From: Sphaerochaetaceae bacterium
GTDB lineage: Bacteria; Spirochaetota; Spirochaetia; Sphaerochaetales; Sphaerochaetaceae
Direction: 5' to 3'
Assembly (NCBI GenBank): GCA_028532765.1
Contig: JAQQAR010000080.1
Coordinates: forward strand, 1 to 64,000
DNA: 64,000 nucleotides
A model generated the notes under the pieces. That model saw only the letters and a program-made list of their open reading frames with translations, made no database searches and had not been told where the DNA came from. Positions 19,948 to 22,504 of the stretch are shown here, in pieces. How positions within the stretch are numbered: position 1 is the stretch's first letter; the number at the start of each line of letters is the position of its first letter. Position numbers and translations under genes: made by a program.

Positions 19948-20044
19948 AGGTAGCACATCATAAACATATTTGTACGTAATTACTAATAGATACAATATAG
20001 TTATTTTGTCCTCTAGCGAATAAAATTGGGACAATTTACGCCTA

Positions 20045-20073
20045 TTGACAGATATCCTGTATTGGTTTTCAAT
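20045..20073 (+). promoter_or_regulatory. promoter candidate for the BCCT operon
   Basis: TTGACA at 20045-20050 is a perfect -35 box, with TTCAAT at 20068-20073 after a 17-bp spacer. It is about 50 bp upstream of the ribosome site at 20110-20115, so BCCT may have its own promoter in addition to read-through from the aldolase operon. Confidence 0.6.
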
Positions 20074-20122
20074 CAGAGCAGAATTATGATTATGCTAGTA
20101 GCTATATATAAGGAGCTTTGAT

Positions 20123-21763
20123 ATCAAACAGAAAAAACCATCTACCAAACGTAAACTTGACTTTGACATCCATCCCGTGGTGTTCTTCACCTCCGCTTCC
20201 CTTATCATAGGATTTGTCATTGTTTCGGTATTCTTCAACGAGATGCTGGGGAATATATTCAACCCTCTTCTTAATGGGATTTCCACCAACGCTGGTTGGT
20301 TTTTCACGCTTTCAGTGAACATTATCCTGCTGTTCGTACTCTATTTGATGTTCAGCCGTTATGGGGATATACGACTGGGAGGGGGCGATGCTGAACCAGA
20401 TTTCAGTACCCTCAGCTGGTTTGCCATGCTCTTCTCTGCTGGAATGGGAATAGGCTTGCTCTTCTACGGTGTAGCCGAACCAATGTTCCATTTCATGGTT
20501 CCCCCGGTTCCTGCTGATTCTGCGGCCGAAGCTGCACAGAATGCCATGAAGTATACATTCCTCCACTGGGGTCTGCATCCATGGGCAATTTACGCACTGG
20601 TTGCGCTTGCCTTGGCTTTCTTCAGTTTCAATAAGGGCCAACCGCTGTCCATCAGATCAATTTTCTATCCAATTCTTGGTGAGAAGATCAACGGGGGATG
20701 GGGTAATCTAATCGATATCCTGGCAACCATCGCTACGTTGTTTGGTGTTGCCACCTCCCTCGGATTTGGTGTACAGCAGATCAATGCAGGACTGAATCAC
20801 CTCACCGGTCTCGAGCAGAGCCCTCTTGTGCAGCTGTTTCTTATAGCAGGGATTACCACGATTGCAACAATCTCAGTAGTCAGGGGACTTGATGCTGGTA
20901 TCAGAAAGCTCTCAGAGCTCAATATTTGGCTCGCCTTATCCCTATTGGTGTTTGTGTTCGTCTTTGGCCCCACACTCTTTATTGCAAACGGGTTTGTCGA
21001 GAATATTGGTGCTTATCTCACTTCGTTCGCTGAGATAGCTACATGGAATGAAACATTTGAGAATGCATCCTGGCAGAATGACTGGACTGTCTTCTACTGG
21101 GCTTGGTGGATCGCTTGGTCTCCCTTTGTAGGCATGTTTATCGCTCGTGTCTCCAGGGGCAGGACCATCCGGGAATTCCTTATGGGAGTACTTTTGATCC
21201 CGACACTCGTTACCTTCTTGTGGATCACTGTATTTGGTAATTCTGCCCTCTATATTGACCTATTCAAGGGAGGTAATCTTGGCCAAGGGGTAACCGAGAA
21301 TGTACCGCTTTCTCTCTTCCTTCTGTTGGAACATTTCCCGCTCTCTTCAGTTCTATCTGTTCTTGGGGTATTGGTTGTGGTGAGTTTCTTTGTCACCTCA
21401 TCTGATTCCGGTTCCATGGTAATCGATATCATTACAGCTGGTGGTAATCCAGATCCACCAATTCCCCAGCGGCTTTTTTGGGCAATCCTGGAAGGTGTGG
21501 TGGCAGCTGCCCTGTTACTCAGTGGAGGCCTTGTTGCGCTCCAGTCAGCGGTCATTGCAACTGGGCTCCCCTTTGCGGTAGTCCTGCTTCTGCTTACCTA
21601 TAGCCTTAAGAAGGGCTTGAACGAGTATACCGGGGTGCAGACGTTCTCTGTGAAAACGGGAAAACTGAAGACCCGTCATTTCCAGATTGAGAGTGGAGAG
21701 GCTCCTCTTGTGAGATTCCATAAGAAATCCAAGAAAAAACAACAGGAGAAATCAGATGTTTAA
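20123..21763 (+). CDS. BCCT-family transporter (betaine/carnitine/choline type)
   Basis: This integral membrane protein has twelve transmembrane helices. The family motifs are present: the Gly-rich GMGIGLLFYGVAEP, HWGLHPWAIYALVALALAFF, and the aromatic substrate region FYWAWWIAWSPFVGMFIARVSRGRTIREF. These carriers import trimethylamine zwitterions or related compounds by sodium or proton symport, or by exchange. The coding frame continues upstream of the first GTG (20174, 20177) through family-typical FDIHPVVFF. AAGGAG at 20110-20115 is followed seven bases later by ATC at 20123. No ATG, GTG or TTG lies in that frame, so an AUC start is the best fit (546 residues). It overlaps the next gene by 8 bp. 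The exact substrate is unknown. Confidence 0.85.
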   Translation: MKQKKPSTKRKLDFDIHPVVFFTSASLIIGFVIVSVFFNEMLGNIFNPLLNGISTNAGWFFTLSVNIILLFVLYLMFSRYGDIRLGGGDAEPDFSTLSWFAMLFSAGMGIGLLFYGVAEPMFHFMVPPVPADSAAEAAQNAMKYTFLHWGLHPWAIYALVALALAFFSFNKGQPLSIRSIFYPILGEKINGGWGNLIDILATIATLFGVATSLGFGVQQINAGLNHLTGLEQSPLVQLFLIAGITTIATISVVRGLDAGIRKLSELNIWLALSLLVFVFVFGPTLFIANGFVENIGAYLTSFAEIATWNETFENASWQNDWTVFYWAWWIAWSPFVGMFIARVSRGRTIREFLMGVLLIPTLVTFLWITVFGNSALYIDLFKGGNLGQGVTENVPLSLFLLLEHFPLSSVLSVLGVLVVVSFFVTSSDSGSMVIDIITAGGNPDPPIPQRLFWAILEGVVAAALLLSGGLVALQSAVIATGLPFAVVLLLLTYSLKKGLNEYTGVQTFSVKTGKLKTRHFQIESGEAPLVRFHKKSKKKQQEKSDV

Positions 21764-22436
21764 ACAGATCAGTCAAAAATATGCAGGTGGATGTTTTTTC
21801 TTGTTACGACAACAAGAAGATGTAGTAGTCTTCCTGGGAACGGCCTTTCTCGTACATGAACAGGGATACCTCCTTACTGCCACCTACTTGCTGGAAGAGA
21901 ACTATGAGGGGTTGATGGTAGCTCGACCCAGCAATCCAGAGGCGTTCTCTCCACTCAGTCTTGATGTGGTCCAGGCAATCCCTGTGGAGGTTATCAAAGC
22001 CGATCATACAACCAATACTGCGCTGCTTCGCTTCACAAAGCCCCTAATCATCGATACTCCTGACCATATGGTAGGAAATGTCGAGTCCGTACAACTGGGT
22101 TCTTCGGTACTAGGATTTGGATTCCCTTTCGGACATGAGGACCTACAGAACCTTGCTGTACAGAGTGGAATTATTGCCTCTAAAGTTTCACTCAGGGATT
22201 CTGTGAATCTTTTTCTGTTCGACCGAGCCATGCATACTGGGATGGCAGGAGGTCCGCTGGTCAATTATGACGACGGAAGAGTCATTGGTATCATGATGGG
22301 CCTTTTTGTTCCAAAAGAAGAGGGTGGGGATTTTGTCAGGGGGTCCCTTCCAGGGTATGAATCAAGTTTCAGTTATGCCATCTCGATCGAGTATGGAAAG
22401 GCTATGCTTGAGGATTTGGGATTGACGTTACGATAG
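21756..22436 (+). CDS. trypsin-fold (HtrA-like) pseudoprotease coupled to BCCT
   Basis: This 226-residue cytosolic protein follows the two-barrel trypsin fold: FLGTAFLVHEQGYLLTATYL, then NTALLRF, then LGSSVLGFGFPFG and AVQSGIIASKVS, then MHTGMAGGPLVNYDDGRVIGIMMG. All three catalytic positions have changed. The usual His of TAAHV is Tyr44, the usual Asp of DLALL is Asn87, and the usual Ser of GNSGGP is Ala164. The fold therefore looks preserved with no protease activity. The ATG at 21756 has AGGAG seven bases upstream and overlaps the BCCT stop, so the two are translated together. It has no signal peptide. I infer a regulatory or binding role for the transporter. Confidence 0.8.
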   Translation: MFKQISQKYAGGCFFLLRQQEDVVVFLGTAFLVHEQGYLLTATYLLEENYEGLMVARPSNPEAFSPLSLDVVQAIPVEVIKADHTTNTALLRFTKPLIIDTPDHMVGNVESVQLGSSVLGFGFPFGHEDLQNLAVQSGIIASKVSLRDSVNLFLFDRAMHTGMAGGPLVNYDDGRVIGIMMGLFVPKEEGGDFVRGSLPGYESSFSYAISIEYGKAMLEDLGLTLR

Positions 22437-22466: not shown

Positions 22467-22504
22467 TATGCACTGTTTGGTGATGCGATACTGAACAGTG
22501 CATA
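22467..22504 (+). terminator. intrinsic terminator after the BCCT-pseudoprotease operon
   Basis: The 11-bp arms TATGCACTGTT and AACAGTGCATA are perfectly complementary around a 16-base loop and are followed by TTTTGT. Confidence 0.85.

Follow-up and report, generated by a model that had tools for sequence, protein, structure and literature searches.

A catalytically dead protein of the trypsin/HtrA fold is encoded directly behind a betaine-type BCCT transporter gene in Sphaerochaetaceae, and its orthologues in many genera of Spirochaetia are inherited with a single clade of BCCT transporters. None of the 29 full-length orthologues retains the catalytic triad, and the coding sequence is under purifying selection. 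The start of the pseudoprotease gene overlaps the end of the transporter gene, and the transporters of this clade carry a long C-terminal tail of their own kind. The protein is probably a dedicated cytosolic, non-catalytic partner that controls or stabilises one betaine BCCT clade, perhaps via that tail. A partnership with the BCCT as such appears highly probable; docking on the tail combined with control of transport is a more tentative proposal, to which we give somewhat less than even weight.

The window, the whole 64,000-nt stretch of DNA that was analysed, contains the following features of the locus.

20111–20115, + strand: AGGAG Shine-Dalgarno-like site with a 7-nt spacing to ATC 20123, kept in five Sphaerochaeta genomes
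20123–21763, + strand: BCCT betaine-type transporter gene, 546 aa from the probable start ATC 20123 (the mechanical ORF begins at GTG 20177)
21602–21760, + strand: long, predicted cytosolic C-terminal tail of the BCCT (SLKKGLNEYTGVQTFSVKTGKLKTRHFQIESGEAPLVRFHKK...), a candidate docking site from its length, conservation and model
21744–21748, + strand: AGGAG Shine-Dalgarno-like site of the pseudoprotease, within the end of the BCCT gene
21756–21763, + strand: 8-nt overlap of the pseudoprotease ATG (21756–21758) with the BCCT stop TAA (21761–21763)
21756–22436, + strand: intact trypsin/HtrA-fold pseudoprotease ORF, 226 aa plus TAG (PF13365, AlphaFold2 model, dN/dS)
21885–21887, + strand: TAC codon, Tyr44 in place of the catalytic His
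22014–22016, + strand: AAT codon, Asn87 in place of the catalytic Asp
22245–22247, + strand: GCA codon, Ala164 in place of the catalytic Ser (GMAGGPL instead of GNSGGPL)
22467–22504, + strand: weak terminator-like stem-loop from a motif scan, 16 pairs followed by a T-rich stretch, 3' of the pseudoprotease gene

Fold and loss of the catalytic triad

The first-pass annotation had described an intact HtrA-like frame with Tyr44, Asn87 and Ala164 at the catalytic positions, starting within the end of the BCCT gene, and had suggested structure prediction as a check. The frame is intact over its 226 codons, the three residues were read from their codons in the DNA and agree with alignments to HtrA proteases, and the overlap measures 8 nt. 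The Pfam Trypsin_2 profile (PF13365) is matched over its full span (E = 3.2e-13; 51.1 bits, cut-off 27.6). It is the sole Pfam match, and no PDZ domain was found in the 226-aa protein. With the NCBIfam Do-family profile TIGR02037 the protein scored 40.1 bits, below the cut-off of 416.2. The closest matches among solved sequences are the HtrA proteases MucD, HTRA1 and DegP, and the closest named homologue is a protein of Sphaerochaeta sp. M55B162 with 94% identity; the window belongs to a Sphaerochaeta-like genome. An AlphaFold2 model built with the 29 orthologues as input (pLDDT 86, pTM 0.86) placed HtrA proteins on top of a Foldseek search, with MucD at E = 3e-13, and was aligned by VIA-align to HtrA chains with Z-scores of 21–23, including 23.1 to MucD and 21.8 to the protease domain of MamO (5hma). 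The predicted structure thus matches HtrA.

In both the model and the structural alignments the protease domain starts at residue 1, a position invariant in 29/29 orthologues, and no signal peptide region was found in the model, the structural alignments or the 29-orthologue alignment. Because this arrangement leaves no room for a signal peptide, the pseudoprotease should be cytosolic and share its compartment with the BCCT tail, a placement that also draws on BCCT topology.

Orthologues were searched in 100 relatives and then in 395 Spirochaetia genomes, many of them metagenome assemblies with short contigs. This profile-depth search covered Spirochaetia and yielded 29 full-length orthologues of 31–99% identity. 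When orthologues were sought beyond the class, a phylum-wide search yielded nothing but generic HtrA, in ORFs of full enzyme length; a contig scan of the genomes returned one Sphaerochaeta locus, and a plasmid search only stand-alone proteases.

An intact H-D-S triad was present in 0/29 orthologues, while all 25 outside HtrA/Trypsin_2 sequences that could be read at the three positions of the same alignment were H-D-S. In five further outside sequences the matched stretch stops short of the His loop, and D and S are retained. Since the controls are intact and the orthologues broken in a shared alignment, loss of the triad is a family trait, the exact residues being lineage-specific. The possibility that an intact triad lies at other positions of the frame, which the first-pass annotation had named as grounds for abandoning its reading, was rejected: the motifs on either side are in register in all three loops, where the controls read H-D-S. 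The Y-N-A replacement is limited to Sphaerochaeta; the other orthologues are broken in other combinations, namely H-N-A, H-N-T, H-N-S (L101), H-G-I, H-D-A (L080), R-D-A/V/L/I, S-G-V, A-G-I, S-D-I and R-D-S (L088, L089). The nucleophile position is freely variable, being A, T, I, V or L in 26/29. Asp is always absent from one sub-clade; in the second, His is mostly replaced by Arg, and Ser mostly by Ile, Val or Leu. This difference is compatible with two losses as well as with a single early loss and later drift, and a tree including the outside sequences gave a single origin of the family a support of 53/0. The invariant columns of the family are mostly Gly, Asp, Tyr and Phe, and Cys13 is near-invariant.

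Inheritance with one BCCT clade

Conservation of the pair in relatives had also been suggested as a check. The pseudoprotease gene adjoins, on the 3' side, a BCCT gene of one monophyletic clade in 26/29 orthologues, in one of two layouts: BCCT followed directly by the pseudoprotease, or (11 loci) BCCT, OpuAC lipoprotein and pseudoprotease. Among the tight pairs the overlap is 8 nt in 12/13 and 11 nt in the remaining one; L080 and L039 are adjacent pairs whose genes lie 1 and 18 nt apart. L036, L099, L101 and L080 were counted as paired from their intergenic gaps. No RNA structure was detected at the BCCT/pseudoprotease junction (z 0.57). The stem-loop at 22467–22504 could plausibly, if weakly, mark the end of a two-gene operon; the terminator scan gave one consensus match, below the shuffled mean.

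A tree of 65 BCCTs placed the partners in a clade of 30 rows with support 100/99. The clade comprises 26 paired loci, three cut by contig ends (L146, L147, L165) and one truncated BCCT (L145), and none of the 35 BCCTs outside it has a pseudoprotease. Other betaine-type BCCTs of the same genomes manage without one. The pair persists between families whose flanking genes are wholly different. Across the 395 Spirochaetia genomes, 32 have both genes, 47 the BCCT only, one a profile match only and 315 neither; the co-occurrence (Fisher p ~3e-24) is descriptive only, as relatedness is ignored and the value is inflated by shared ancestry. The lone profile match (G083) is a stand-alone protease with an intact triad. 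Five Sphaerochaeta genomes that lack the pseudoprotease were tested for a BCCT, and none has one. The arrangement is not due to chance, since even orthologues of only 31% identity share the reading frame, the pairing and a broken triad. The suggestion of the first-pass annotation that a dead protease is kept as a binding or regulatory partner of the transporter gains support: the pair is strongly conserved, and none of the 29 orthologues has an active triad in the same arrangement.

In Sphaerochaeta, dN/dS is 0.036–0.058 for the pseudoprotease and 0.014–0.077 for the BCCT, and full-length orthologues contain no frame-breaking stops. A dN/dS of about 0.05 rejects a pseudogene. Pairwise distances of the two proteins are correlated (r = 0.915; 0/2000 permutations), a descriptive value inflated by shared ancestry.

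The tail is likewise a property of the paired clade, with 56–115 aa versus 18–60 aa in other BCCTs (medians 64.5 versus 29.5). Within the overlap group, identity among relatives is 0.73 over the first 42 tail positions and 0.25 past them, with 0.81 in the membrane core. Residues 505–546 of the BCCT lack secondary structure in a mediocre model (pLDDT 66) that is too weak to place the tail. As judged from sequence and this model, the conserved, apparently unstructured tail looks like a docking peptide. Its sequence differs between the two layouts, with no obvious common motif past GLxxYxG...F. The long tail and the pseudoprotease mark the same clade, and their association may reflect a single evolutionary event.

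Several loci depart from the common pattern. In L145 (G041) the paired-clade BCCT is broken near residue 430 and no trace of a pseudoprotease was found there, so that both were probably lost jointly. In L081–L087, L090–L093 and L165 an OpuAC-type lipoprotein gene separates the BCCT from the pseudoprotease or, where the contig ends, follows the BCCT; the lipoprotein belongs to the glycine-betaine binding family PF04069 (E = 1e-59). These loci combine a periplasmic binding protein with a secondary transporter, and no ABC components occur in the immediate neighbourhood. Three orthologues of one genus (L088, L089, L094) come from genomes without a paired-clade BCCT and lie directly behind an ORF without a Pfam match; two of them have Ser at the nucleophile position and Arg for His. 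They are nested inside the family in the tree, with a neighbour that differs from the BCCT. They show that the pseudoprotease can outlast the BCCT or has acquired another role there, and in this lineage some transporter-independent function is possible.

Proposed role and alternative explanations

In the model that we favour, the pseudoprotease would bind the BCCT, a sodium-coupled transporter probably specific for glycine betaine, in the cytosol, where the protein's former substrate cleft or a neighbouring surface would grip the tail as an extended, uncut peptide. The activity or stability of the transporter under osmotic stress would be set by capture and release of the tail, for which ionic strength or a bound ligand may be the trigger. 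HtrA proteins and BCCTs are both commonly trimeric, and by analogy a matched trimer symmetry of the two is possible. Against the model, neighbouring genes may be co-regulated although their products never make contact. In lineages with OpuAC, the periplasmic betaine binder would probably be part of the same uptake unit. We regard it as doubtful that the clade forms a two- or three-component osmolyte importer made up of the BCCT, a pseudoprotease that reads the tail and, in some lineages, an OpuAC lipoprotein feeding it from outside; were this true, a dead HtrA would act as the osmotic gate of a secondary transporter.

This model has precedents. BetP, the best-studied BCCT, is controlled via its cytosolic C-terminal domain, and the soluble trimeric proteins GlnK and SbtB directly control transporters (PMC10710835). 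The paired BCCTs belong to the same family of glycine-betaine symporters (TC 2.A.15) as BetP, whose C-terminal cytosolic extension is regulatory; in contrast to BetP, they carry a different, apparently non-helical conserved tail sequence and have a soluble partner gene attached. The GlnK-AmtB and SbtB-SbtA systems (PMC10710835) share with the present pair a small cytosolic protein encoded beside a transporter (glnK-amtB). GlnK and SbtB, however, are PII-family proteins, whereas the present pair is built on a dead-protease scaffold whose binding to the transporter is putative.

The strongest rival is that the pseudoprotease serves as a private assembly or stability factor, which helps the BCCT to fold, or protects the transporter or its tail against housekeeping proteolysis, and does not tune transport. 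HtrA relatives also function as chaperones, the genetic evidence fits this explanation as well as the one we favour, and the overlapping start, with translation right after the BCCT, would suit co-translational capture. Small partners that shield transporters from FtsH are known (review table, PMC10710835). However, other BCCTs, including betaine types of the same genomes, do without such a factor, and the clade-specific tail resembles a control element in a family whose tails are osmosensors. We consider this explanation unlikely, though it deserves more weight than the others that follow.

A sensor of a ligand or metal that acts on a target other than the BCCT, with the two genes merely co-regulated, is improbable. 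In favour of such a sensor, three orthologues persist without the BCCT clade. MamO, which has the same fold, has lost catalysis and binds transition metals (PMC4794232; 5hma, Z 21.8). Against such a sensor stands the strict tie to a single BCCT clade instead of a range of partners. In addition, a comparison of sequence columns in the 29-orthologue alignment showed no invariant His pair that could form a di-His metal site, and the invariant residues of the family are mostly of other kinds.

Residual hydrolysis through a rearranged or partial active site is very improbable. One sub-clade outside Sphaerochaeta retains His, Ser persists in L101 (H-N-S) and in L088 and L089 (R-D-S), and Cys13 is kept nearly throughout; but no member has the full triad, the nucleophile is replaced in nearly all of them, and Cys13 sits in the first strand of the model, outside the catalytic loops. 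A decaying ex-protease hitchhiking behind the transporter can practically be dismissed: the catalytic residues do drift among lineages, but purifying selection, open frames and retention of the pair across large divergence refute this reading, unless the DNA alone is under selection.

A controlling or stabilising partner remains our preferred role for the pseudoprotease. BCCT transporters are regarded as self-contained osmosensors, and a conserved soluble partner for one clade would show that this control can be outsourced. It would also be a further example of a protease scaffold that became a regulator by holding a peptide, a change that could be followed through two differently broken sub-clades and active relatives. 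The pair is small and self-contained and occurs in culturable Sphaerochaeta, which makes it directly testable.

The protein resembles HtrA/Deg proteases (MEROPS S1C, PF13365; MucD, DegS, DegP, HTRA1) along the whole length of the protease domain, including the GxGGPL loop, the frame of the catalytic loops and the C-terminal strand. Unlike them, it lacks the triad, the PDZ domain and the export signal region, and its gene overlaps that of a BCCT. The one described HtrA pseudoprotease tied to a transporter domain that we found in the literature is MamO of magnetotactic bacteria (PMC4794232, 5hma), which derives from HtrA, has lost catalysis under selection and is physically joined to a membrane domain of the transporter type. 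MamO works at magnetosomes, has a TauE-like domain fused to it and uses a di-His site to bind metals, whereas the Sphaerochaeta pseudoprotease is a separate 226-aa gene product with a single Pfam domain, is predicted to be cytosolic and is paired with a BCCT. The first-pass annotation had called the arrangement undescribed, and our search of open-licence papers likewise found no description of a BCCT-linked pseudoprotease. With the pseudoenzyme as a probable partner of a transporter, the pair would be a new scaffold–transporter combination.

Nearest by profile and length are stand-alone Trypsin_2 proteases of ~220–230 aa without PDZ, found on plasmids of Klebsiella (NZ_CP058136.1) and Acinetobacter (NZ_CP103341.1) and in the spirochaete G083; unlike the pseudoprotease, they have an intact H-D-S triad and no adjoining BCCT gene. 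The G083 protein (L040) was rejected as a family member on both counts. In L078, L079 and L040 (the small Klebsiella and Acinetobacter plasmids and G083) the protease gene is directly followed by a small gene, a hypothetical protein or unannotated ORF, and the two together are possibly a separate two-gene system.

Start codon and upstream region of the BCCT gene

The transporter matches PF02028 (E = 3.8e-197, 656 bits) and TIGR00842 (542 bits against a cut-off of 407.55), and scores 596.3 bits with the glycine betaine BCCT equivalog NF047988, slightly below the cut-off of 650. Betaine specificity is likely from these profiles, not assured, and is supported by the OpuAC gene in sister loci.

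D15, H17 and P18 of the BCCT lie upstream of GTG 20177 and are invariant in the clade alignment (A3), and in Sphaerochaeta no ATG, GTG or TTG occurs from the in-frame stop to the invariant D-I-H-P motif. Translation probably starts at the non-canonical ATC 20123, upstream of the GTG. AUC and AUU start codons are rare in bacteria. The codon at this position is ATC in four and ATT in one of the five Sphaerochaeta genomes, and an AGGAG-like site with ATC or ATT is found also in remoter members of the overlap group. Overall, 13/14 BCCT genes of this group have an apparent ATC/ATT start 6–8 nt past an AGGAG-like site, and L099 may use TTG; scripted spacings may be one base too long at AGGA matches, and the 7 nt of the window were recounted by eye. 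The loci with an apparent ATC/ATT start include the window (20111–20125), L034, L035, L036, L037, L038, L098, L100, L101 and L145. Such a conserved start could hold synthesis of the transporter low relative to its partner.

Upstream of the gene, a strongly conserved block at 20030–20110 (CTATTGACAGAT...CAATCAGAGCAGAATTAT) is present in the five Sphaerochaeta genomes. A sigma-70 consensus scan gave no match in this block, which is likely a promoter or operator.
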